Shown piece after piece: positions 2,490-39,641 of a stretch of 64,000 nucleotides of DNA. Both the position numbers and the translations under genes were made by a program. Source of the DNA: Streptomyces sp. NBC_00433 (GTDB lineage: Bacteria > Actinomycetota > Actinomycetes > Streptomycetales > Streptomycetaceae); the NCBI GenBank assembly GCA_036015235.1, contig CP107926.1, positions 2,732,001 to 2,796,000 on the forward strand. The letters run 5' to 3'. Each line of letters opens with the position of its first letter. Position 1 is the first letter of the stretch. The notes beneath the pieces were generated by a model. That model was given only the letters and a program-made list of their open reading frames with translations, did no database searches and had not been told where the DNA came from.

Positions 2490-4040
2490 TCAGGCGCCGG
2501 CCTCGGCCTCGGTCTTGAGGGCCAGCCACAGCTCCATGCGCACGTCGGGGTCGTCCAGGGAGCGGCCGAGGATCTCCTCGACCCGCCGCATCCGGTAGCG
2601 CAGCGTGTGCCGGTGCACCCCGAGGTCGGCCGCCGCCGCGTCCCACTGGCCGTGGTGGGACAGCCAGGCGTGCAGCGAGGCGACCAGGTCGCCGCGCGAG
2701 GTGGCGTCGTGCTCGCGCAGCGGCCGCAGCAGGCCCTCGGCGAAGGCCCGTACGGCGTCGTCGGCGAGCAGCGGCACCACCGACCCGGCGCCGACCTCGC
2801 CGTGCTCGACCAGGTTGCGGCCCCTGCGGACCGCGACCGCCAGCGCCCGCTCGGCCTGCCGGTTCGCCTCGGGCACCTCCTCGGGCGGCACCGCCGCCGA
2901 CAGCCCCGCGGCCAGCGCGTCCTCGGCCTCGGCCAGGTCGGCCGCCGCCGCCAGCGCGGTGGCGTCCTGCGCGGCCAGCACGATCAGCCGGGCGTCCTCC
3001 TGGATCACCAGCAGCGGGTCGCCGGAGCGGGCGGCGGCCGAGTCCACCCGCTCGGCCAGCCGGGACAGCGCCTCCGGGCCGCGCTGGGCGTCGCTGGGCT
3101 CGGCGATCAGCACCCGCACCGGGTGGTCGAGCAGGCTGCGGTAGAGCGCGCCCGCGACACTGCGGGCATGGCCGGCCTCGCCGGCGAGCAGCATCCGCAG
3201 CAGGGCGGCGGCCAGCCGGGTGTGCGCGTCCTGGAGGGTGCGGGACTGCTCCAGCGACAGCGTCAGCAGGGCGACGGCGGCGTGCACCACATAGCGCGCC
3301 GAAGTGTCGAGGCGCTCCTCGGTGCCGACCGCGAGATAGCCGCGCGGGCGGCGCCCGGTGCCCAGCGACTGGATCTCGACCCGGTCCTCGCTGCCCGCGG
3401 GCCCCGCGACGGCGGCGCCGGCCGGCCCCTGGATCTCCCGCAGCCGGTCGATCTCGCCCGTCAGCCGGGCGGCGCGGCGGCCCGCCCAGTCGGGCGCGGC
3501 GGCCACCACGGCGCCCGAGGCGTCGTAGAGCGCCGCCCAGCCGTCGAGGTGGGCGGCGAGCCGGGCCAGCAGCGCGGCCGTGCCGTCAGGGGCGAGCGCC
3601 GCCCGGGTCAGCTCGCGCTGGGCGTCGAAACCCGCGGTCACCGCCTTGTAGCGCTCGGCGGCGAGCGCGGCGGAAACGGTCTTGCTGATCGCGATGAAGG
3701 GTGTCCTGCGCGGCACCTCGACCAGCGGCAGCCCGCCCCGCTCGGCGGCCGCCACCAGGGCCTCGGGCACCGTGTCGTGCCCGACCCCGACGCCGAAGCC
3801 CAGCCCGACGACCTTCGCGGCGGTCAGCCGCCGCACATAGCCGCGCATCGCCTCCGCGTCGCCGACCTCCAGCTTGAGCCCGGTGGTCAGCAGCAGCTCG
3901 CCGCCCTCCAGATACGGGCCCGGATCGTCCAGTTCGCTGGTGTGCACCCAGCGGACCTCCGGATCCAGCCGGTCCTTGCCGGCGAGGACGGTCAGCTTGA
4001 GCGCCGAGTGCTGCACGAGGGAGGCGAGGGTGAGCGGCAT
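2490..4040 (-). CDS. PucR-family transcriptional regulator
   Basis: A 516-residue regulator. The first 125 residues form the purine-catabolism regulator (PucR) sensor domain, beginning LTLASLVQHSALKLTVLAG and containing the typical WVHTSELDDPGPYLEGGELLLTTG region. The middle is a CdaR/GGDEF-like domain. The last 60 residues hold the PucR-type helix-turn-helix (WDAAAADLGVHRHTLRYRMRRVEEILG). Family members bind DNA near catabolic operons for purines, amino acids or polyamines. The ATG at 4040 starts exactly where the family begins; a TTG 20 codons earlier is less likely. It ends 30 bases before the stop of the TrypCo1-like gene (convergent). A likely target is one of the neighbouring aldehyde dehydrogenase or gabT genes, which is inference from position only. 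Confidence 0.85.
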   Translation of the reverse strand: MPLTLASLVQHSALKLTVLAGKDRLDPEVRWVHTSELDDPGPYLEGGELLLTTGLKLEVGDAEAMRGYVRRLTAAKVVGLGFGVGVGHDTVPEALVAAAERGGLPLVEVPRRTPFIAISKTVSAALAAERYKAVTAGFDAQRELTRAALAPDGTAALLARLAAHLDGWAALYDASGAVVAAAPDWAGRRAARLTGEIDRLREIQGPAGAAVAGPAGSEDRVEIQSLGTGRRPRGYLAVGTEERLDTSARYVVHAAVALLTLSLEQSRTLQDAHTRLAAALLRMLLAGEAGHARSVAGALYRSLLDHPVRVLIAEPSDAQRGPEALSRLAERVDSAAARSGDPLLVIQEDARLIVLAAQDATALAAAADLAEAEDALAAGLSAAVPPEEVPEANRQAERALAVAVRRGRNLVEHGEVGAGSVVPLLADDAVRAFAEGLLRPLREHDATSRGDLVASLHAWLSHHGQWDAAAADLGVHRHTLRYRMRRVEEILGRSLDDPDVRMELWLALKTEAEAGA

Positions 4041-29227: not shown

Positions 29228-30343
29228 TCACTTCAGGACGATCGCATTCCACGCGTCGACCCAGTCGTCGCGCTGGGCGGCGATCTTCGCCGGTGCGAGC
29301 GTCGTGGGGTGCTCGATCTTCGCGCCGTATTTGACGAAGACCGGCGGCTCGACCGCGTCCTTGCGCACCGGGTCGACGTACATCTGCAGCGGCATGTCCT
29401 GCTGGAAGGTCCTGCTCAGCATGAAGTCGATCAGCGCCTGGCCGCCCGCGGTGTTCTTCGCGCCGTGCAGCAGTCCGGCGAATTCGATCTGCCGGAAGCA
29501 GGTGCCGGTGGCCACCCCCACGGGTGACTGGGCCGGCTCGGGGGTGACGCCGACGACCTCGGCGGGCGGGCTGGAGGCGTAGGAGACCACCAGCGGCCGG
29601 TCGCCCTTGGCCTGCTTGCCGGCCGAGGAGCCGGAGAAGCGGTCGTTGTAGGCCTGCTCCCAGCTGTCGACGACCTCGACCCCGTTGCCCTTGAGCTGCT
29701 TCCAGTACGCCTGCCAGCCCGCGTCGCCGTAGGTGGCGGCGCTGCCCAGCAGGAAGGCCAGGCCGGGCGAGGACGTCGACACGTTCTCGGTGACCAGCAG
29801 GTTCTTGTACGCCGGCTTGACCAGGTCGGCGAAGGTCTGCGGCGGTGCCAGGTGGTGGGCGGTGAAGTAGGCCCGGTCGTAGTTGACGCAGACGTCGCCC
29901 GAGTCGATCGGGGTGACCCGGTGCTTCGCCGCGTCGAGCTGCACGTCGGCGGGGACCTGGCCGAGGTCCTTGGCCGTGTACGGCGTGAACAGGCCGTTGT
30001 CGAGCGCCCGGGAAAGCAGGGTGTTGTCGACGCCGAAGAAGACGTCACCGCGCGGGTGGTCCTTGGTGAGGATGGCCTGGTTCACGGCCGCGCCGGCGTC
30101 CCCGCCGCGCAGCACCTTGACCGTGTAGCCGGTCTCCTTGGTGAATTCGGCGAGCACGGACTTCGACGCGGCGAAGGAGTCGTGGCTGACCAGGGTGACG
30201 GTCTTGGAGCCGCTCCCGGCGGCACCGCTGCCCCTGGCGTCCTTGCCCTTGTCCTGCGAGTCGCTGCCGCAGGCGGCCAGCACGGTCGCGGCGGCGGTGG
30301 CCAGGACGAGCGCGCCGGCGGCACGCCGGGATGTGGTTCTCAT
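29228..30343 (-). CDS. thiB: Thiamine-type ABC transporter substrate-binding lipoprotein
   Basis: A 371-residue exported protein. A signal peptide with a lipobox (VLAAC near residue 24) marks it as a lipoprotein. The mature part fits the ThiB family: VTLVSHDSFAASKSVLAEF, GDAGAAVNQAILTK, DVFFGVDNTLLSRAL and DSGDVCVNYDRAYF. It should bind thiamine, its phosphates or a precursor. The ribosome binding site GGGAG at 30352-30356 lies in the 3' end of a TPP riboswitch, so TPP should switch translation off. It heads the thiB-thiP-thiQ operon. Confidence 0.88.
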   Translation of the reverse strand: MRTTSRRAAGALVLATAAATVLAACGSDSQDKGKDARGSGAAGSGSKTVTLVSHDSFAASKSVLAEFTKETGYTVKVLRGGDAGAAVNQAILTKDHPRGDVFFGVDNTLLSRALDNGLFTPYTAKDLGQVPADVQLDAAKHRVTPIDSGDVCVNYDRAYFTAHHLAPPQTFADLVKPAYKNLLVTENVSTSSPGLAFLLGSAATYGDAGWQAYWKQLKGNGVEVVDSWEQAYNDRFSGSSAGKQAKGDRPLVVSYASSPPAEVVGVTPEPAQSPVGVATGTCFRQIEFAGLLHGAKNTAGGQALIDFMLSRTFQQDMPLQMYVDPVRKDAVEPPVFVKYGAKIEHPTTLAPAKIAAQRDDWVDAWNAIVLK

Positions 30344-30351
30344 CTGCGATG

Positions 30352-30455
30352 ACTCCCTACGCCGGTATGACCCGGATCAGGTGGGAGGGTCTGCGGCCTG
30401 AGACCTCGCTTTCAGGTCCCTCGCCGCACTCTCAGCGCCGTCGCAGGCGCTCCCC
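30352..30455 (-). promoter_or_regulatory. TPP riboswitch (THI element)
   Basis: On the minus strand the segment starts GGGGAGCGCC, has the conserved GCTGAGAGT, then GACCCT, ACCTGATCCGGGTCATACC and the closing GCGTAGGGAG. These are the hallmark pieces of the thiamine pyrophosphate riboswitch in the right order. The 3' GGGAG both pairs with the 5' end in the closing stem and serves as the ribosome binding site of thiB. This points to translational control by TPP. Confidence 0.95.
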
Positions 30456-30529
30456 TGTCGGAATGTTCTGTTGTACGACCGTATGAAGCCATGTCTTCCG
30501 CCGGTCGCCGACCGTACGCTATCAGCAGG

Positions 30530-31636
30530 TCAGCGCTCGGCTGCGGCCAGCTGCCCGCAGGCGCCGTCGATCTCCTGGCCCCGGGTGTCCCGCACGGTCA
30601 CGGGCACGCCGTGCGCTTCGAGCGCGGCCACGAACGCCCGCTCGTCCTCGGGCCGAGACGCGGTCCACTTCGAGCCGGGCGTCGGGTTGAGCGGGATCAG
30701 GTTGACGTGCACCCGGTGGTTCTTCAGCAGCCTGCCCAGCCGGTCGGCACGCCACGCCTGGTCGTTCACGTCGCGGATCAGCGCGTACTCGATCGAGATC
30801 CGGCGGCCGGAGACCTCGGCGTAGTGCCAGGCCGCGTCCAGCACCTCGCGGACCTTCCAGCGGGTGTTGACCGGTACGAGGGTGTCGCGCAGCTCGTCGT
30901 CGGGGGCGTGCAGCGACACCGCGAGGCGGCACTTGAAGCCCTCGTCCGCGAAGCGGTACATCGCGGGCACCAGGCCCACGGTGGACACGGTGATGCCGCG
31001 CTGCGACAGGCCGAGCCCGTCCGGCTCGGGGTCGGTGAGCCGGCGGATGGCGCCGACGACCCGCTTGTAGTTGGCCAGCGGCTCGCCCATGCCCATGAAG
31101 ACGATGTTCGACAGCCGGGCCGCGCCGCCGGGGACCTCCCCGTCGCGCAGCGACTTCATGCCGGCCACGATCTGGTGCACGATCTCGGCGGTCGACAGAT
31201 TCCGGTCCAGGCCCGCCTGGCCGGTGGCGCAGAAGGGGCAGTTCATGCCGCAGCCGGCCTGTGACGAGATGCACATGGTGACCCGGTCCGGATAGCGCAT
31301 CAGCACCGACTCGACGAGGGTCCCGTCGAAGAGCTTCCACAGCGTCTTGCGGGTGTCGCCGTCGTCGCACGACGCGTGCCGCACCACGGTCATCAGCTCG
31401 GGCAGCAGGTCCTCCGCGAGCTTCCCGCGGGCCGCGGCAGGTATGTCCGTCCAGGCGGCCGGGTCGTCGGCGAACCGCGCGAAGTAGTGCTGCGACAGCT
31501 GCTTGGCCCGGAAGGGCTTCTCCCCGAGCGCTGCCACCGCCTCACGTCGCTCGGCGGGCGAGAGGTCGGCAAGATGCCGCGGGGGCTTCTTGGCCCCACG
31601 CGGCGCGGCGAAAGTCAGTTCTCCGGCTACAGGCAT
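30530..31636 (-). CDS. rlmN: Dual-specificity 23S rRNA / tRNA adenine-C2 methyltransferase
   Basis: A 368-residue radical-SAM enzyme that methylates A2503 of 23S rRNA and A37 of some tRNAs. The iron-sulfur cluster Cys residues 129, 133 and 136 are in CGMNCPFC. The sequence [17 protein letters not shown] (SAM site) and the C-terminal [14 protein letters not shown] (with the methyl-carrying Cys) are present. The ATG at 31636 lies inside a 23-base direct repeat that recurs at 38536-38558, so the first seven codons and the upstream flank may come from an integrated element. A GGGA lies eight bases before the ATG. Confidence 0.93.
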
Positions 31637-31639
31637 GAT
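31617..31639 (+). repeat. Direct repeat copy 1 (att-like site) over the rlmN start codon
   Basis: A 23-base segment identical to 38536-38558. It covers the rlmN ATG and its next codons. To its right, a further 28 bases match the other copy imperfectly (mismatches plus one indel); to its left the two copies are unrelated. This is the pattern expected for the attachment site on the gene side of an integrated element. Confidence 0.8.
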
Positions 31640-31996
31640 GCGTCCCAGTGTCGCAGACCGCGCGGCACTGCCTGCTCAGAGCGGATCGGCGGGGGTCGTC
31701 GTTGGTCGTTGACGGTCACCGATGGCCAGCCTCGCACGGCCCACAGACGGCCCGGGAACCCAGTGGAACCGTGGTGAGGCTGCCGGTGAGGTACGGGTGA
31801 GTCAGTGAGTTCTCACTGCCTGCCTCACTCGGGCACCTCACCGGGTTGACCTGCGGAAGTGAGGCTGGTGACCCTGGTGACACCCCGCTGGGCAGCCTGT
31901 TTGGACCCTCAACGACGGGCTTTCGCGGGAGCGCCGCTGCCTCACTCACCAAGCCGACCGGGAGCTCCTGCAGGCGGGCGGAGGCTAGGGCAGAAA
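31640..31996. other. Non-coding arm region with clustered GTGAG/CTCAC motifs
   Basis: About 350 bases with no convincing gene. Between 31773 and 31950, GTGAG or its complement CTCAC occurs about ten times, including GTGAGGCTG twice (31774 and 31859). The motifs sit next to the att-like repeat, as integrase arm-binding sites do in attP regions. A 78-codon minus-strand frame (31716-31952) crosses it, but its sequence is not protein-like. Confidence 0.45.
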
Positions 31997-32076
31997 TGAG
32001 AGGGCGGTAAGTGACGTACTGCCCGTTTCGCGCTTGCAGGTGGGGCTGTCGGGCTGGTGGTGGCCTCTTCGGGTGG

Positions 32077-32500
32077 CTATCGCCGTGGCTGGGTGAACAA
32101 CCCCTGCTCGGACTCGATCAGGATCCCGCGTTCGACCAGCCGCTTCAGCTTCAACCGGACGTTGTTGACGTTGCTGGGCGCGATCTCCAGAGCCATCGCC
32201 TCGCAGACCGCCCGCGCCCGCAGCGGGGCGTCGGCCGCGGCGAACACCCGCCATGATCTGCCGGTAGGCCGGATGGTCCGGCAGCTTCGTGGCCGGTGGC
32301 GTCGGCGGGGACGGATCGGGCAGGGCCAGCAGCGTCTTGCGGGTGATGCGGACTTCTTCGGCGAGGCGGTCGAACTCCGCCAGTTGCGCGTTGAGTTCGG
32401 CGATGCGTCCCCGCGTGGTCTCGGCCTGCGTGGCGATCTCGCGCTCTTGCTCCTCCAGGCGCGCCAGCACCGCTCCCAAGGTCAGCTCGCTGCCGCTCAC
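32077..32500 (-). pseudogene. IS-carried coiled-coil / winged-helix protein, frameshifted
   Basis: The GTG at 32500 overlaps the transposase stop (GTGA). The first 84 residues are read cleanly: a long coiled coil (ARLEEQEREIATQAETTRGRIAELNAQLAEF) followed by a Pro-rich linker and LPDHPAYRQIM. At 32247-32249 an extra base shifts the frame; without it the reading continues as a winged-helix-like part (AVFAAADAPLRARAVCEA and VNNVRLKLKRLVERGIL) to a stop at 32077, giving about 140 residues. The repaired length is an exact codon multiple, which supports a one-base insertion. I recall intact homologues in Streptomyces. It could be a transposition helper or regulator; nothing proves that. Confidence 0.7.
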
Positions 32501-33336
32501 GCGCTGCGCCAGGTGGGGGTGGAGGTCGCGGTCAGTATCCGGGCCATCCGGTCGCTTATGGCCCAGTACACCCTCGACTCGGCAGAGGCGGGCCGGTGTT
32601 CGTAGTCCCGTACCAGCCTGCGGTGCAGCGTCATGATCCCGTTCACCTGCTCCACCACCCACCTCTTGGGCTGCGGGACGAACCCGCTGCCCTCCGGGTT
32701 ACGCTCGACGACTTCGACGTCGATGCCCACCTTCCGCCCGTGGTCGATGACAGCGTTCTTGAACCCCTGGTCCACCAGGGCCTTCTGCACCGTGTCGGTG
32801 TCGGCGGCGACCTTGTCCAGCAAGGCGATGCCGGCGGCGTTGTCGTGCGCGGACGCGGCCAGCACCACCACCGCGATCACCAGACCGAGAACATCAACTG
32901 CCAGGCCGCGCTTGCGGCCCGGGACTTTTTTTGCCGCGTCCCTTCCGGTGGTGTCGGCGGGCACTCCGACGGCCGCGTGCAGGCTCTGGGTGTCGAGCAC
33001 CACCAGGCTGGGGTCGGCCTTGCGCCCCCGGCTCTCGCGCACCTGCCAGCGCAGCAGGTCGTGGATGGTCTGGTCGGTGCCGTCATCGCGCCACGTGTAG
33101 AAGTAGTACTTCACCGCGCCGACCGGGGGCAGGTCGTGGGGGAGGTAGTCCCACTGGCAGCCGGTACGGGACTGGTAGAGTAGGGCGTTGACGATCTCCC
33201 GCATCGCGTAGGCGCCCTGGTGGCCGCTGACGGAGGGATGCCGAGCCTTCCAGGAGGCGATGACGGGCTCGATCAGGGCCCACCGCTCGTCGGACAAGTC
33301 GCTCTTGTAGGGCTGGCGGTCGCTCACGAAGAACAC
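32497..33336 (-). CDS. IS5-family transposase
   Basis: A 279-residue DDE transposase with the N-terminal DUF4096-like part (LSDERWALIEPVIASWKAR, YQSRTGCQWDYLPHDLPP) and the RNase H-like catalytic part. Likely acidic residues are in VVLDTQSLH, DQGFKNAVIDHG and RWVVEQVNGIM. The reading frame is complete. It spans most of the element bounded at 32000 and 33429. The stop overlaps the second gene of the element, so the two are translationally coupled. Confidence 0.9.
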   Translation of the reverse strand: MFFVSDRQPYKSDLSDERWALIEPVIASWKARHPSVSGHQGAYAMREIVNALLYQSRTGCQWDYLPHDLPPVGAVKYYFYTWRDDGTDQTIHDLLRWQVRESRGRKADPSLVVLDTQSLHAAVGVPADTTGRDAAKKVPGRKRGLAVDVLGLVIAVVVLAASAHDNAAGIALLDKVAADTDTVQKALVDQGFKNAVIDHGRKVGIDVEVVERNPEGSGFVPQPKRWVVEQVNGIMTLHRRLVRDYEHRPASAESRVYWAISDRMARILTATSTPTWRSA

Positions 33337-33512
33337 TCCAGCACGACAGAACTCCCCGATCAGCGCCGATGCCCCTGCGCCACACGTTCCAGCGACAACA
33401 AACGCGGCATCACGTCACATACCGCCCTCTGACACCTCACGGGCGCCTGCTCGCTGCGACGATGTATCGAGCGCCCCTCATAGGCAAGGCAAGCCGACCG
33501 TAGGGATGGCCC

Positions 33513-34073
33513 ATGGACGCCAACACCGTCACCGCTATCTGCGCCACCGGAATCGCCACAGCATCGTTCGCCGTGACAATCATGGAAACCCGCGCCAACC
33601 GCCAGCACAACCGGCATTCCGTCGCTCCGATCCTGGAACTCTGGGCTCGGCGACGTGTGGGAGGGCCCACGGGCATCCTCATAGCGAACTACGGCCTCGG
33701 CCCGGCGATCATCACCCAGAGCCGAGCGTTTCTCGACGGAGTCGACCTCGGCCCTTGGGCAGAGGAAGCACTCGAAACCGTCCGTAGGGCCGTGCAAGAA
33801 CGCCCTCACGGCATGGCACTCAACCATCGCGGGGTAACCATCCCAGCGGGCAACGAACGGTTCCTCCTATCCACCGATGCCTATGATCCCAGGCGCCACT
33901 CGGATCTGTGGGACCTGGTCTGGCGCCGCCTCACGCTCAAGATCGACTACGAGTCCCTGTATCGGACCGAAACTCTCAGCGTCTCCCTCCGGACTCACGA
34001 CAGCCCCCCCTTCCTACCCGGGGCGCATCAGAGTGGGCCGGATGCCCCAGAAACCCATGCAGGGCGAGCGTGA
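33513..34073 (+). CDS. Hypothetical protein with N-terminal membrane anchor
   Basis: A 186-residue protein of unknown function. Residues 3-23 (ANTVTAICATGIATASFAVTI, mildly hydrophobic) form a likely single membrane anchor, followed by a basic METRANRQHNRH and a soluble domain with a mixed alpha/beta pattern (ILIANYGLGPAIITQSRAFLDG, and LWDLVWRRLTLKIDYESLY). The ATG at 33513 follows a weak GGGATGG. The gene sits between the two insertion sequences and its stop is 80 bases before the IS3 end, so it is intact. Codon choice is less GC-biased than in the core genes, consistent with foreign origin. Its layout is like that of the protein at 37266-37934. Confidence 0.6.
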   Translation: MDANTVTAICATGIATASFAVTIMETRANRQHNRHSVAPILELWARRRVGGPTGILIANYGLGPAIITQSRAFLDGVDLGPWAEEALETVRRAVQERPHGMALNHRGVTIPAGNERFLLSTDAYDPRRHSDLWDLVWRRLTLKIDYESLYRTETLSVSLRTHDSPPFLPGAHQSGPDAPETHAGRA

Positions 34074-34222
34074 AAGCCAGAGCGGGAAGCAGGAAGCGCG
34101 CCCGCCGAGCGGCGACTCTCAACACCGGGTCTGGTGCAGGGTTGGGTGACGGTTGACCTGCCCCACCTCTGAGGTTCCAGTTCTGCTGGCTAACTGACGG
34201 CCTTCACGAAAGGCTGTCGGAC

Positions 34223-34519
34223 ATGCCCCGCGCCTACCCTGCTGAGTTCCGCGCCCGCGCCGTTGCGTTGGTGCGGGCTGGAAAAGAACAGAAGCAGACC
34301 GCCGTCGACCTCGGCATCCATCCGGTCACGCTGTCGAAGTGGTTGCGCCAGGACGACATCGACAACGGCCTGCGCCCTGGCAGGGTCTCGGAGGAGTCCG
34401 CAGAGCTGCGTGCAGCGCGGCGACGAATCCGCGAGCTGGAAACCGAGCTCGAGATCGTCCGCAAGGCCGCCAAGTTCCTCGGCGAGGACAAGCCGGCCCC
34501 AAAAGGCTCTACCCGGTGA
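34223..34519 (+). CDS. IS3-family transposase OrfA
   Basis: A 98-residue helix-turn-helix protein: RAYPAEFRARAVALVRAGKEQKQTAVDLGIHPVTLSKWLRQDD followed by a leucine-rich helix (AELRAARRRIRELETELEIVRKAAKFLGED). It recognises the element ends. OrfB lies in the -1 frame. The sequence CCAAAAGG at 34500-34507 could allow a -1 slip to make OrfAB, and the GTG at 34516 overlapping the OrfA stop (GTGA) could start OrfB alone. Confidence 0.9.
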   Translation: MPRAYPAEFRARAVALVRAGKEQKQTAVDLGIHPVTLSKWLRQDDIDNGLRPGRVSEESAELRAARRRIRELETELEIVRKAAKFLGEDKPAPKGSTR

Positions 34520-35281
34520 TCGACCGTCTCGTCGATGCCGGGGCACCGGTCGACCGATGCTGCCGGATCCTCGGGGTCGCCCGGCAGAACTACTACAAGC
34601 ACAAGCGCACCCCGACCACACCGCGGCAGCTGCGACGGGAGTGGCTGACCGGGCTGATCCGGGAGGTCCACGTCGCCTCACGCGGCACCTACGGCTACCG
34701 CCGCATCCACGCCGAGCTCACCCTGGGCATGGGCATCCAGGTGTGTTCCAGGACGGTGTCGGTGCTGATGACACAGGCCGGTATCCACGGACTGCCCGGA
34801 CCGGTGCGGATCAAGCGCCTGCGGGGTGTCGTCACCGCCGATGACCTGGTCAACCGGAAGTTCCATCGGCTGCGACCCAACGAGCTGTGGGTCACCGACA
34901 TCACGCAACACCGCACCAGAGAAGGGTGGGTGTACTGCGCGGCGGTCCTGGACGCGTTCAGCCGCAAGATCGTGGGCTGGTCGATCGACTCCAGACAGGA
35001 CTCCGCCCTCGTGGTCAACGCGCTGGACATGGCCATCCGCAACCGGTGCCCCGAACCAGGCGGGATAGTGCACGCCGATCACGGCATCCAGTTCACCTCC
35101 TGGGTCTTCGGGGAAAGGATCCGCTCAGCCGGGCTCCTGCCGTCGTTCGGCACTGTCGGGGACGGCCTGGACAACGCGATGACCGAGTCGTTCTGGTCCT
35201 CGATGCAGATCGAGCTGCTCAACCGCAAACGGTGGAAGACCCGGGTCGAGTTGGCGAACGCGATCTTCGAGTACATCGAGG

Positions 35282-37090
35282 GACCCCGTTGCCCAATTGG
35301 GTGATGGCTTCTGATCTCGGCCTTGGCGGTTGGTTGAGGGGTGGAGCCTGAGGTCGGGGGCCTGAGTCGCGAGCCCGCCTCGATCTTGGGACGGAGGGGT
35401 TGGGTGTCGATGCGGGCGGACTCGGGTCGGGAGGTGCCTGAGGAGACGCGGGCGGTGGCCTGGGCGGCGTTTCCCAAGGGGTGTCTGGCGATGCGGGTGC
35501 GGGACGCGCTCGGTCCACTGTTCGATGACGAGGTCTTCAAGTCCACGTTCGGCGTGCGTGGCCGCCCCGGTGTCGCTCCGGGCCAGCTGGCGCTGGTCAG
35601 TGTGCTGCAGTTCGCGGAGAATCTGACCGACCGCCAGGCGGCCCACGCGGTACGCGCGAGAATCGACTGGAAGTACCTGCTTGGCCTCGACCTGGCCGAT
35701 CCGGGCTTCGACTTCACCGTGCTGACGGGGTTCCGCGACCGTCTCCTGGCCCACAGTCTGGAGGAGAAGATCCTGGATCTGCTGCTGGAGCGGCTCAACG
35801 AACTGGGGCTGGTGTCCGGGCGGGGCCGGCAGCGTACCGACTCCACGCACGTGCTTGCCGCGGTGAGGGACCTCAACCGCCTGGAGTTCATCGGCGAGAC
35901 GCTGCGGGCCACGCTGGAGGCGGTCGCCGTCGCAGCGCCCGAGTGGCTCGCCTCCTGGATGCCCCCGGCCTGGCAGCAACAGTACGGGGCCCGGGTGGAC
36001 TCCTACCGGCTGCCGAGTGGTGAAAGCGAGCGGACGCAGCTCACCTGGCGTATTGCAGCTGACGGCTACCAGTTCCTCAATGCGTCCTTCGCGGCCAGTG
36101 CCCCGGCCTGGCTGCGGCAGGTCCCGGTTGTTGGCATCCTGCGGACGGTGTGGCTCCAGCAGTTCCAGCGCACGATCACCGACGGAGTGCAAGAGGTGTC
36201 CTGGCGGGGGAAAGACGATCTCCCGCCCAGCAGAGCACGGATCACCTCGCCCTACGACCCCGACTCCCGCAACGCCGTCAAGCGCGGCTCGGCCTGGGAC
36301 GGCTACAAAGTCCACTTCAGCGAGACCTGCGACGCCCGGGAGACCGGCCGACCGCATCTGATCACCCACGTGGTGACAACGGACGCCACGGTCGGCGACC
36401 CCGTGGTCGTCGACGAGATCCATGACCGCCTCGACGCCAAGGGCCTGCTGCCGGGCGAACACCTGATGGATGCCGGCTACATCTCCGCGGAGCTCCTGTT
36501 GACGGCGCCCACCCAGAGAGGTGTCCGCGTGATCGGCCCGGTCCGGCCCATGACCCGCCGCACCGTCCAGGCAACCGGCTACGACAAGGCATCCTTCACT
36601 ATCGACTGGGACGCTCATCGGGCGATCTGCCCCGACGGTGCCCACAGTCGTTACTGGACCGAGGGACTCGACAACAATCAGCGACCCGCGATCCGCATCC
36701 GCTTCGCCACCGAGACCTGCGCGCCCTGCCCGTCCCGCGGGCAGTGCACCAACTCAACACGTTACGGCCGACAGCTCACCGTCCGCCCACAAGATCAAGA
36801 CGCCGTCCTCGAACGCGTCCGCGCGGAGCAAACCACCGAGGAGTGGAAGGCGGTCTATGCCCTCCGCTCCGGAGTGGAGGGCACGATCCACCAGGCGGTC
36901 ATGGCCGCCGGCGCTCGCCGCACCCGCTACGCAGGACTGCGAAAGACCGCCCTCGCACACGTCCTTACAGCCACCGCCGTCAACCTCATCCGCCTCGATG
37001 CCTGGTGGACCGGGCAGCCACTCGCACCTACCCGAACATCACACCTCGCCGCCCTCGACCTCGCCGCATAGACAATTGGGCAACGGGGTC
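35282..37090 (+). mobile_element. IS1182-family insertion sequence nested in IS3
   Basis: A 1809-base element with 18-base perfect inverted ends: GACCCCGTTGCCCAATTG at 35282-35299 and its complement at 37073-37090. The 7-base target copy ATCGAGG flanks it at 35275-35281 and 37091-37097. Its single gene is the transposase at 35341-37071. Perfect ends and target copies suggest a recent insertion. Confidence 0.93.
35341..37071 (+). CDS. IS1182-family transposase
   Basis: A 576-residue transposase. The N-terminal DUF772 part (LGPLFDDEVFKSTFGVRGRPGVAPGQLALVSVLQFAENLTDRQAAHAVRARIDWKYLLG) is followed by the catalytic region with QRTDSTHVLAAVRDLNR, GEHLMDAGYISAELL and a C-terminal RSGVEGTIHQAVMAAGARRTRYAGL. 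A Cys-rich patch (ETCAPCPSRGQC) is typical of this family. The reading frame is intact. GTG 35341 is the earliest start; GTG 35404 is an alternative. The stop lies two bases before the right inverted repeat. Confidence 0.92.
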   Translation: MEPEVGGLSREPASILGRRGWVSMRADSGREVPEETRAVAWAAFPKGCLAMRVRDALGPLFDDEVFKSTFGVRGRPGVAPGQLALVSVLQFAENLTDRQAAHAVRARIDWKYLLGLDLADPGFDFTVLTGFRDRLLAHSLEEKILDLLLERLNELGLVSGRGRQRTDSTHVLAAVRDLNRLEFIGETLRATLEAVAVAAPEWLASWMPPAWQQQYGARVDSYRLPSGESERTQLTWRIAADGYQFLNASFAASAPAWLRQVPVVGILRTVWLQQFQRTITDGVQEVSWRGKDDLPPSRARITSPYDPDSRNAVKRGSAWDGYKVHFSETCDARETGRPHLITHVVTTDATVGDPVVVDEIHDRLDAKGLLPGEHLMDAGYISAELLLTAPTQRGVRVIGPVRPMTRRTVQATGYDKASFTIDWDAHRAICPDGAHSRYWTEGLDNNQRPAIRIRFATETCAPCPSRGQCTNSTRYGRQLTVRPQDQDAVLERVRAEQTTEEWKAVYALRSGVEGTIHQAVMAAGARRTRYAGLRKTALAHVLTATAVNLIRLDAWWTGQPLAPTRTSHLAALDLAA

Positions 37091-37265
37091 ATCGAGGTCT
37101 TCCACAACCGACAGCGGCGCCACTCGGCACTGGGCTACCGCACCCCCATCGAGTACGAACTACTCTCCGAACAAGACAAAATCCCCGCCGCCAGTTAGCC
37201 ACCGCAGCTGGAACCCAAACCGTGGGGCAGGTCACCGGGTGCCAGGCACCTACCAAGATGCCTAC

Positions 37266-37934
37266 ATGGACGCAGGAGTGGCTGCGCTCGCAGGCGCAGC
37301 AGTCGGAGCAGCGGGTACCGCTGTGGCTGCATGGTTCAGCGGCTTCTGGGCTCAGCGACAGACGGAGATCCAAGTAGCTGCCCAAAGCCGCCAAATGGAG
37401 CTCCAGATACGCGCCGAGCTCGCAAATCAGCTCAGGGAGCCACGCCGCAAGGCGTACGCGGATTTTCTGGTGGCTGCTGAGACGTCATCGGACCAGGTTG
37501 ACGATGTCGTCCACGAGCTTGAGAAGGAACGCTTGGACCCGGCCCGGGTGCGGGACGTCATGGCGAGAGCCGCGGGATCATGGAACGCTCTTGAGAAGTC
37601 AGCCTCCGTGGCGAGGCTCGAAGGGCCAGAGGATATTGCTGAGGACGTCTCCGCCGTGCAGTTGGTGCTCAGCGAGACGATGCAACGTGCCTCAATGTGG
37701 TTCCTCGCCTACGAGGTAGGGGCTCCAGACGTCGAGTGGAGACCCATACCAGCGGGCGCACGAGCCAAGGTCGCTACAGCCCACCAGTACGTCACCACCT
37801 TCCGGCATCACGCTATGGACGCTATCCGCGCCGATGGGCTGGAAACAGAGGGAGACCAGGTCAGGCGCAGAAACCGTCTGGCCCCCCTGCCGCCTCGCGC
37901 CCCGGACACGGCGCAGGAGGCCCCTCTCAGTTAG
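37266..37934 (+). CDS. Hypothetical protein with N-terminal membrane segment and coiled coil
   Basis: A 222-residue protein of unknown function. Residues 2-24 are hydrophobic (AALAGAAVGAAGTAVAAWFSG) and would anchor it in the membrane. A helical, probably coiled-coil segment follows (QRQTEIQVAAQSRQMELQIRAELANQLREPRRKAYADFLVAAE), then more helices, and a Pro/Arg-rich tail. Such short anchor-plus-helical proteins are common as hypotheticals in Streptomyces. The ATG at 37266 has no obvious ribosome binding site. The gene begins only 32 bases after the right end of IS3, so its native promoter may have been displaced. Confidence 0.55.
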   Translation: MDAGVAALAGAAVGAAGTAVAAWFSGFWAQRQTEIQVAAQSRQMELQIRAELANQLREPRRKAYADFLVAAETSSDQVDDVVHELEKERLDPARVRDVMARAAGSWNALEKSASVARLEGPEDIAEDVSAVQLVLSETMQRASMWFLAYEVGAPDVEWRPIPAGARAKVATAHQYVTTFRHHAMDAIRADGLETEGDQVRRRNRLAPLPPRAPDTAQEAPLS

Positions 37935-38239
37935 CTGGGCTGGGAGCGCCTCGTGACCGAGGCCTCCGGAAGCTTCGTTGAATCGCAGGCGCTACCCGGG
38001 CGTACGCCTGCGGCGGTCTAGACCCATACCACCCTCGATCCCTTTGAATCGAAGGTCCGACAGGCCCTGACGGAGTCAACCCCTTGTTACGAGGGGACTG
38101 AATTTGCGAATCCATGGCAGGTAGGGAACAATCTGACGCGCGGCCAGGTCCGCCAGCCCAGCAAAAAGCCACCCGCCTGCTTGCACACATACGGGTGGCC
38201 TGGGTTCCCACTTCGAGAAGAAGAGGTACCAGGTTCATT
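37935..38239. other. Non-coding stretch of the island
   Basis: About 305 bases without a supported gene. It has a hairpin with GCAGGCG at 37985 and CGCCTGC at 38005, and a second one near 38080-38097 (CCCCT and AGGGG arms) that may end transcription of the gene before it. A minus-strand frame covers part of it but is not protein-like. Confidence 0.4.
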
Positions 38240-38422
38240 ATGAGCAAAGTCCCGTGCCAAAGCCAGCCGACCGCCACGCCCCCCTGGGGTGCCGGTCTCG
38301 CCTACGTCGGTGCTCTCGTCGGAGGAGTGATCCTGATCTGGGCCAGGCGTACCATCCCAGCGGAGGCATCCCTGTACGTGGCGCCGTTCCTGGCGGCCTA
38401 CCGGTGGAGGCCGTCTCGTTGA
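38240..38422 (+). CDS. Possible small membrane protein
   Basis: A 60-residue frame from ATG 38240 with a purine-rich AGAAGAAGAGG 13-14 bases upstream. The middle (GLAYVGALVGGVILIWARR) is a convincing membrane helix with a positive inside edge. The function is unknown and no homologue is recognised. The placement next to the right att-like repeat of the island and before a strong hairpin terminator supports a real transcript, but the call is tentative. Confidence 0.35.
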   Translation: MSKVPCQSQPTATPPWGAGLAYVGALVGGVILIWARRTIPAEASLYVAPFLAAYRWRPSR

Positions 38423-38473
38423 TCCGTAGGGTCGCTCGCCCTGCGACGGCCCCGAGGCGGCCCCACGTCTGAA

Positions 38474-38518
38474 GAGGAGCCCTCCCTTAGCCGCAAAACT
38501 GCTGGTGGGGGGCTCCTC
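38474..38518 (+). terminator. Strong hairpin near the right end of the island
   Basis: The arms GAGGAGCCC and GGGCTCCTC pair perfectly, with further pairs inside, around a 20-base loop. No U-run follows, as is usual in Streptomyces. It would stop transcripts leaving the island before cdsA. Confidence 0.6.
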
Positions 38519-38535
38519 AGGGGCGTGGTGAACCT

Positions 38536-38558
38536 AGTTCTCCGGCTACAGGCATGAT
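38536..38558 (+). repeat. Direct repeat copy 2 (att-like site) before cdsA
   Basis: A 23-base copy of 31617-31639, which contains the first codons of rlmN. Here it is not part of a full gene. The 27 bases to its right resemble the sequence to the right of copy 1 with a few mismatches and one indel. It is probably the attachment site at the chromosome side, with the former upstream flank of rlmN to its right. Confidence 0.8.
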
Positions 38559-38645
38559 TCGTCAAGTGTCGCATCCCGCGGGGCAAAGCTTCACCGGCAG
38601 CGGGCCCGGAGGCGGCAGGCGGCACGGCAGGCGGCAAAAAGAGGA

Positions 38646-39641
38646 TCAGCCCTTGCCGACGAAGGCGACCAGGAGGAGCCAGACCACCGGGGCGGTCGGG
38701 AGGAGGCTGTCGAGGCGGTCCATGATGCCGCCGTGGCCCGGGAGCAGCGTGCCCATGTCCTTGATGTCGAGGTCGCGCTTGATCATGGACTCGCCGAGGT
38801 CGCCGAGGGTGGCGCTGACGGCGGCGGCCAGGCCGAGCAGCAGGCCCTGCCACCAGTGGCCGCCGTCGATGACGTACTGCATCAGCAGGGCGCCCGCGAC
38901 CATGGCGAAGGCGATCGCGCCGAGCAGGCCCTCGCGGGTCTTGCCGGGGCTGATGCGGGGGGCGAGCTTGCGGCTGCCGAAGCGCCAGCCGACCGCGTAG
39001 GCGCCGGTGTCGCTGATCACGGTGAGCAGCAGGAAGACCAGCACCCGGCGGGGGCCGTCGTCCGCGGCGAGCATCATCACCACGAAGGTGGCGAGGAAGG
39101 GCACGTAGAAGGCGGCGAAGACGCCCGCGGTGACGTCCTTGAGGTAGTCGTGCGGGGGCTCGGTCATCCGCCAGACCAGGATGGCCAGCGAGGTCAGGGC
39201 CATCGCCACCCAGGCGCCGTCGGCGCCGCGCAGGTAGCCGGCCACCACTATGGCCACGCCGCCGACCGCGAGCGGGATCAGGGGGACGCGGATGCCCTTG
39301 CGCTCGGCGAGCCGCGAGGTCAGCTCCCAGAGGCCGACCACCACCGCGACCGCGACGACGCCGACGAAGACCGCCTTGACGATGAAGAGCGAGGCGATGA
39401 TGATCACGCCGAGCCCGACCCCCACCCCTATCGCGGCCTGCAGATTCCGCCCTGCGGACTTCTTCGCGGGGGCGGGCTGCTGCGGCGGCTGGGGCGCCGA
39501 GGCCGGGGGTGGCGGTGGCATAGGAGGAGTCTTCCCCCTGGTGCCGGTTTCCGTGCCGGAACCCGCCGTGGCCGTGACCGTGTCCTCGGGCGCTCCCCAG
39601 TGACCGGCGCGTGGCGAAGCGCCCCAGGAAGAGTCGTTCAC
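38646..39641 (-). CDS. cdsA: Phosphatidate cytidylyltransferase
   Basis: A 331-residue membrane enzyme that makes CDP-diacylglycerol from phosphatidic acid and CTP. The signature SMIKRDLDIKDMGTLLPGHGGIMDRLD matches the CDP-diglyceride synthetase pattern in every fixed position. About eight transmembrane helices are seen after an 70-residue Pro-rich cytoplasmic tail. It follows frr (81 bases away) in the order rpsB-tsf-pyrH-frr-cdsA. The island lies just downstream. Confidence 0.95.
   Translation of the reverse strand: MNDSSWGASPRAGHWGAPEDTVTATAGSGTETGTRGKTPPMPPPPPASAPQPPQQPAPAKKSAGRNLQAAIGVGVGLGVIIIASLFIVKAVFVGVVAVAVVVGLWELTSRLAERKGIRVPLIPLAVGGVAIVVAGYLRGADGAWVAMALTSLAILVWRMTEPPHDYLKDVTAGVFAAFYVPFLATFVVMMLAADDGPRRVLVFLLLTVISDTGAYAVGWRFGSRKLAPRISPGKTREGLLGAIAFAMVAGALLMQYVIDGGHWWQGLLLGLAAAVSATLGDLGESMIKRDLDIKDMGTLLPGHGGIMDRLDSLLPTAPVVWLLLVAFVGKG

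Follow-up and report, generated by a model that had tools for sequence, protein, structure and literature searches.

What is the 6.9-kb island that separates rlmN from cdsA in Streptomyces sp. NBC_00433, and to which kind of element does it belong if it carries no integrase gene? The question is raised by a 64,000-nucleotide stretch of this genome (contig CP107926.1, positions 2,732,001 to 2,796,000), here called the window and numbered from its first letter. In it rlmN (31636–30530, minus strand; Pfam Radical_SAM and RlmN_N) and its chromosomal neighbour cdsA (38646–39641, minus strand; Pfam CTP_transf_1) are held apart by DNA that lies between two copies of a short repeat. We are highly confident that this island is the decayed remnant of an actinomycete integrative and conjugative element (AICE) at the start codon of rlmN. 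An original prediction, made from the letters of the window, had described an integrative element at the 5′ end of rlmN that was bounded by attachment (att) sites, lacked an integrase and was either eroded or mobilizable in cis; the empty site, the fuller relatives and the retained post-integrase sequence described below bear this out. As far as sequence comparison reaches, the site, the empty junction, the fuller relatives, an integrase stump and the register of putative arm-type sites can be regarded as established. G and L numbers label genomes and loci.

The repeat at rlmN and the junction in relatives

Both copies of the repeat, AGTTCTCCGGCTACAGGCATGAT, are 23 nt long and identical, and they lie exactly where predicted, over the rlmN start codon at 31617–31639 and before cdsA at 38536–38558. 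The first is taken as the core of the left att site (attL, rlmN side), whose presence keeps the 5′ end of rlmN intact, and the second as the core of the right one (attR, cdsA side), next to which comes the native upstream flank of rlmN. With up to three mismatches allowed, the 23-nt sequence has two matches in the window and none in 100 dinucleotide shuffles, and a 21-nt core searched at the same tolerance is found at two places in the whole genome (8,986,572 bases, 8.99 Mb); a looser core pattern adds one place, which looks unrelated. The copies extend to 28 nt with a single differing base, beyond which the match continues imperfectly, with a shift of 1 nt, through a CAGTGTCGCA-like block. 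This continuation is seen on the right side only, in accordance with the prediction. The native flank beside the right copy, CATCCCGCGGGG, resembles the empty site of G011, and the flank of the left copy resembles G030 (91% over 47 nt).

Both rlmN and cdsA are present in all 35 genomes of the genus that were compared, our own included. In 23 of these the gap between the genes is 32–204 bp. Gaps of 603–2,272 bp occur in six genomes and gaps above 3 kb in five (the window, G008, G026, G032 and G033), while in G007 the two genes are on separate contigs. The original prediction had been set against two outcomes, namely persistence of both repeats without the island or an rlmN–cdsA junction that is interrupted everywhere. 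Neither was found, as each of the 23 short gaps (≤250 bp) holds a single core match at rlmN; G005, G014 and G029 have one additional match elsewhere in the genome, which looks like chance. When the two flanks of the window are joined at the core, the product aligns without a break to G011 (94.0% over 2,215 nt), and an unbroken alignment is obtained with six of the ten loci compared (G011, G005, G006, G015, G028 and G001). With G004, G020, G025 and G030 the joined flanks align in two pieces; G025 and G030 have gaps of 0.7–0.9 kb, and the gaps of G004 and G020 are short but dissimilar to the joined flanks.

Fuller relatives and the missing integrase

The right end of the island identifies the type of element. 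Positions 37974–38558 of the window (585 bp) are 81% identical, over 588 aligned positions, to the end of an element in Streptomyces sp. DvalAA-14 (G032, locus L070), and the match spans from the last codons of the integrase of that element to the core. Because it begins in these last codons, an integrase must once have stood just left of 37974, and the segment 37974–37988 (plus strand), homologous to the codons with which the G032 integrase ends, is what is left of it. This 81% match ties the island to a known mobile element at the same site, as expected of an AICE remnant. A small gene for 60 amino acids (38240–38422, plus strand) has a counterpart of 72% identity in the right end of the G032 element. 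As a whole, the segment 37974–38558 is shared only by G032 among 394 genomes of the family; G026 and G011 match short parts of it near the core. The left end of the island matches the left ends of other rlmN elements at equal distance.

AICEs are described, in an excerpt of PMC3218068, as combining integration, replication and transfer modules. In the G032 element the two cores enclose 17 kb. Its Phage_integrase gene stops 0.55 kb short of the core on the cdsA side, a Prim-Pol gene is present, and one further gene gives weak matches to TraB and FtsK. The element thus resembles the island in core site, in the right 585 bp, in the arm-type pairs described below and in the 60-residue gene, and differs by having integrase, Prim-Pol and TraB/FtsK-like genes, which the window lacks. 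In G026, which encodes a related integrase, the cores are 5.3 kb apart, and the second core is separated from cdsA by another 7.7 kb of other DNA. G007, whose element is split over contigs, also encodes a related integrase, to which the seven other rlmN integrases aligned are 63–66% identical. In three other genera of the family (g9, g13 and g14) the same integrase family is found beside the distal core. Among closed elements of 2.2–12.8 kb the integrase has a full-length match in G107, G103, G074, G166 and G242; its reading frame is broken in G182, in G095 only a fragment is present, and in G046, split over contigs, it is truncated. The fuller relatives would thus form a decay series of which the window represents the last step. 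The family has at least the rlmN elements named here, among the core matches listed; not included among them are G044, whose second core is on another contig at a gene other than rlmN, G283, for which a core match is listed, and chance-looking second matches elsewhere (for example in G005, G014, G029, G030, G067, G086, G148 and G202). In G044 (L130:1575) an rlmN-type core lies upstream of an 84-codon open reading frame (ORF), and the same contig carries genes related to the G032 cargo. The genome's own rlmN–cdsA junction is short, and this core is possibly a secondary integration site.

Could the island instead be what remains of a prophage, or of a phage satellite, with the start of rlmN as its target? 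Actinophages carry tyrosine integrases of this general kind, but the phage integrases are 28–30% identical (10 of 15 rows), against 63–66% among eight rlmN integrases and 60% in a circular 18-kb record (L218). The latter is annotated as a plasmid, also has FtsK, primase/polymerase and helix-turn-helix genes, and is read as an excised relative. Moreover, the element with the most similar right end encodes Prim-Pol and a TraB/FtsK-like protein, and no phage genes were seen among the ORFs scanned. Phage matches being weak only, a phage origin is disfavoured and we hold it to be very improbable.

The AICE reading also agrees with published cases. The 5′ end of rlmN had seemed an unfamiliar target in the original prediction; it is, however, already on record for one Streptomyces AICE. 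According to the available part of PMC9513070, the only match for an AICE or integrase at rlmN in the library searched, AICE03 of Streptomyces RLB3-6 is inserted in rlmN with an 11-nt direct repeat and has its own integrase and excisionase genes. The window has neither gene and a repeat of 23 nt, and the two are likened by description only. An AICE in rlmN is therefore known as a kind, to which the island adds a member. Decay of AICEs with retention of direct repeats is described in the same excerpt.

Putative arm-type sites and the integrase family

A second feature shared by the rlmN elements is a pair of 7-mers with an 11-bp period, ACGGCCC-N4-RCGGCCC. In the window a candidate left arm-type site, ACGGCCC-N4-ACGGCCC, is located at 31736–31753 (plus strand), +117 from the left core, and a candidate right one, ACGGCCC-N4-GCGGCCC, at 38446–38463 (plus strand), −92 from the right core. 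The window, G032, G026 and G007 first drew attention to the motif, and the other ends served as the test set. All 12 left ends have the pair in register, at +117 in ten of them, +116 in G032 and +106 in G007, and so do all 12 right ends, where it stands at −92 in eleven and at −90 in G007. The pair is also present in all 20 right ends beside named integrase loci, at −90 to −93, of which at least three were already counted (L136, L142 and L168 are G007, G032 and G074 again). None of 5,000 random 320-nt segments per window strand (0 of 10,000 in total) and none of 133 segments inside four elements contain it. Among 16 genomes without a second rlmN core, an arm pair beside rlmN is lacking in 12; G020 shows one at +126, and in G018 a looser version stands at +137. 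G001 and G028, the remaining two, are unread as the core pattern did not fit. The whole genome has nine matches to the motif and eight to the pattern read backwards. The motif alone is thus not enriched genome-wide, and the evidence lies in the register.

By analogy, the paired repeats look like putative arm sites of the integrase, a reading modelled on phage lambda as presented in part of PMC4111918. No description of this arm layout was found in the one library searched, where the match to the motif in the excerpt of PMC3583192 is a PCR primer. Beyond the rlmN elements, the motif follows the integrase at a distance of up to 400 nt in 12 of 60 related loci that lack an rlmN core; nine of the 12 show, after the motif, what was read by eye in the DNA as the 3′ end of a phosphoglycerate mutase gene. 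In L218 the motif flanks both sides of a different, duplicated stretch. A short junction with an arm pair is found in G020 (L089), where the rlmN–cdsA gap is 161 bp and the left pair still stands at +126 from the core; this is perhaps the scar of a lost element.

Between right arm and right core a conserved hairpin was found at 38478–38514 (plus strand) by comparison of 16 sequences. It has 13 predicted pairs, in eight of which one or more two-sided changes preserve the pair, and some rows break the pairing. It is likely an integrase terminator or a part of attR. A terminator scan gave three hits, compared with a mean of 3.2 in shuffled sequence, and missed this hairpin.

In the integrase tree, which holds 85 rows from the family and a single distant one, eight changes account for the rlmN label, against a mean of 22 when shuffled, and the label falls mainly in two clades; the change count may be inflated since some rows labelled 'other' are near a contig edge or show cdsA without a core. 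The core is shown by 20 of the best 80 integrase loci, a set biased by its choice for likeness to rlmN integrases. A tRNA gene as the target is ruled out, as none is present in the window or in any of 25 integrase loci, each taken with about 1.5 kb of flank. According to an excerpt of PMC3218068, pSLS is the single AICE integrase subfamily that does not sit in tRNA genes. The rlmN integrases share this avoidance (25 of 25 loci), a likeness in description and not in sequence.

Our own genome holds a further eroded element of this integrase family (L223:719, about 3430–3970; C1, about 4213518–4216800). It has a left arm pair, a short C-terminal integrase stump (66% identical) and a degenerate right arm and hairpin beside the 3′ end of a presumed phosphoglycerate mutase gene.

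Contents, decay and possible mobility of the island

Insertion sequences (IS) fill 4,513 of the 6,919 bp of the island. An IS5-family copy occupies 31999–33430 (minus strand; 25-nt inverted repeats, 88%; NF033580) with its transposase at 32497–33336. An IS3-family copy at 34154–37234 (plus strand; 48-nt inverted repeats, 79%; NF033516) is split by an IS1182-family copy (35282–37090, plus strand; 18-nt perfect inverted repeats; NF033551) within its transposase gene. The latter copy is flanked by ATCGAGG at 35275–35281 and 37091–37097, which is likely a target duplication. The IS3 copy has no clear target duplication at its flanks and no second copy of it was found in the genome, and its role as the cause of a deletion stays a guess. 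With three IS copies lying between the repeats, one could ask whether the repeat arose when IS activity duplicated the rlmN leader and is no att site at all. This is scarcely credible, as the repeats border none of the three copies, repeats of the rlmN core in other genera bound integrase-bearing elements, and the arm-type pairs stand at fixed distances from the cores.

Two further genes appear to be leftover cargo: one of 186 amino acids without a family match (33513–34073, plus strand), which has a 35% relative in the 0.86-kb rlmN–cdsA gap of G030, and one of 222 amino acids without a Pfam match (37266–37934, plus strand). The original prediction held that integrase and transfer genes were absent and that the cargo consisted of unknown membrane proteins. 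The first part stands, whereas the wording on cargo fits only about 2.4 kb, the rest being IS. No integrase, replication or transfer gene was found between the cores, either by a profile scan of the ORFs or by a tblastn search of 31640–38535 with proteins predicted for G032, G026 and G007, whose single weak hit (E 0.004) falls within the IS1182-family copy. An integrase gene beside the att site, as in an AICE, is thus represented in the window by a stump of a few codons and is present in the fuller relatives. No replication gene of the RepSA, RepAM or Prim-Pol type was detected among the scanned ORFs or by tblastn, and no FtsK/TraB-type transfer gene was found in the island. For an integrative mobilizable element an integrase gene is lacking and no relaxase match was obtained among the scanned ORFs; no search for an oriT was made. 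Defective AICEs and AICE traces, in the usage of the available part of PMC9513070, and cis-mobilizable elements share with the window flanking direct repeats, a missing integrase and possible mobilization in cis. A defective AICE in that usage keeps traB and lacks the integrase gene, the replication gene or both, but no traB was found in the window. What the island does have are direct-repeat att sites that flank DNA without integrase and transfer genes, as in an AICE remnant or a cis-mobilizable element.

Several observations weigh against a decayed AICE. Since the replication, transfer, excisionase and integrase genes are all gone, membership rests on the ends and the relatives. Among the loci compared the 186-residue gene matches only G030 and the 222-residue gene matches none; at the DNA level the region of the former has a 243-nt match of 71% in G004, and neither cargo gene was seen in an intact AICE among these loci. 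Both window cores read GGC at a place where the third base is G in the other 34 genomes of the genus. Simple integration of a foreign attP, the att site of the element, would not predict this sharing, which suggests an origin of the element in the same lineage, or its homogenisation there. The rlmN site is not absolute, because the element in G044 has a core at another gene. Finally, eight genomes of the genus (G008, G010, G013, G018, G021, G025, G030 and G033) have gaps of 0.6–9.3 kb and one core at rlmN, which means that the junction can lengthen by other routes or lose its second core; an arm pair in register was not found in their left ends. One of these, G030 (L077; 856-bp gap), combines a window-like left end (91%, 47 nt) and the 35% relative of the 186-residue gene with absence of a second core or arm pair, and is perhaps a remnant that has decayed further still.

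For a decayed AICE the following history can be proposed. The tyrosine integrase of an AICE would have recombined attP with the chromosomal site (attB) at the rlmN start codon, whereby the element would have delivered copies of the core and a short conserved block upstream of rlmN. The gene would have retained its first codons and presumably a working promoter, and its native upstream flank would have been displaced by 6.9 kb to its present place beside cdsA. Replication, transfer, excisionase and integrase genes may later have been lost and three insertion sequences may have entered, in an order that we infer, which would leave two complete-looking att sites (each with core and arm-type pair, the right one with the hairpin as well), two or three small cargo genes and a few integrase codons. 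An incoming related element presumably could still excise the island.

The last step leads to an alternative, that the island is a living cis-mobilizable element which an adjacent related AICE could excise, carrying both. The presence of core and arm-type pair in exact register at both att sites, the recurrence of rlmN elements in the biased set of 80 loci (20 with the core) and the accretion and cis mobilization discussed for AICEs in an excerpt of PMC9513070 speak for such mobility. Against it, our genome shows no working integrase of the family, the best match being 35% identical with a short stump elsewhere, three IS copies lie inside the island, the whole right end occurs in no other of the 394 family genomes except in the G032 element, and the piece 33431–34153 is in no other of the 35 genus genomes save for the 243-nt match of 71% in G004. 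On balance we regard a living element as unlikely, though not negligibly so. Mobilization in trans by a resident integrase was likewise considered and rejected, as the genome holds only the 35% relative and the short stump.

A wider scheme is offered tentatively, as a possibility with the balance against it. One AICE integrase family would use a bipartite attP of constant layout, with paired ACGGCCC arms at +117 and −92 and a hairpin at the right end, and with cores that can be exchanged. The core of the rlmN branches would bring a replacement leader and promoter for the 5′ end of a protein gene, mirroring the restoration of tRNA 3′ ends, and the island would be a still-excisable carrier free of integrase. 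The locus shows a conjugative element of the Streptomyces family decaying at a fixed site, with the attachment sites lasting longest. It yields a testable att layout of core, paired arms and hairpin for an integrase family that uses protein genes and not tRNA genes. This layout could help to find defective elements that are missed by gene-based searches, and rlmN could serve as a chromosomal landing site.

The stretch that appears to stand in for the rlmN upstream region, 31640–31667, contains the conserved CCAGTGTCGCAGA block, and comparison of block and flank points to it as element-borne. The block is exact in 14 of 20 printed rlmN upstream regions, the left copy of the window counted. No ribosome-binding motif was seen by eye between it and the rlmN start codon, and a scan for sigma-70-type promoters over 31400–38700 gave no sites, so it is the conservation of the CCAGTGTCGCAGA block that argues for a promoter; the element may accordingly supply a substitute promoter for rlmN. 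In the G032 element (L070:1-18601) the similarity between att sites exceeds the core and reaches about 100 bp, with 89% over 62 nt and 86% over 35 nt, and this element seems to carry local host leader sequence. In addition, a thiamine pyrophosphate (TPP) riboswitch was detected at 30337–30466 (minus strand, 61.1 bits), upstream of ORF 30343–29228, which we take to encode the binding protein of a thiamine ABC transporter.

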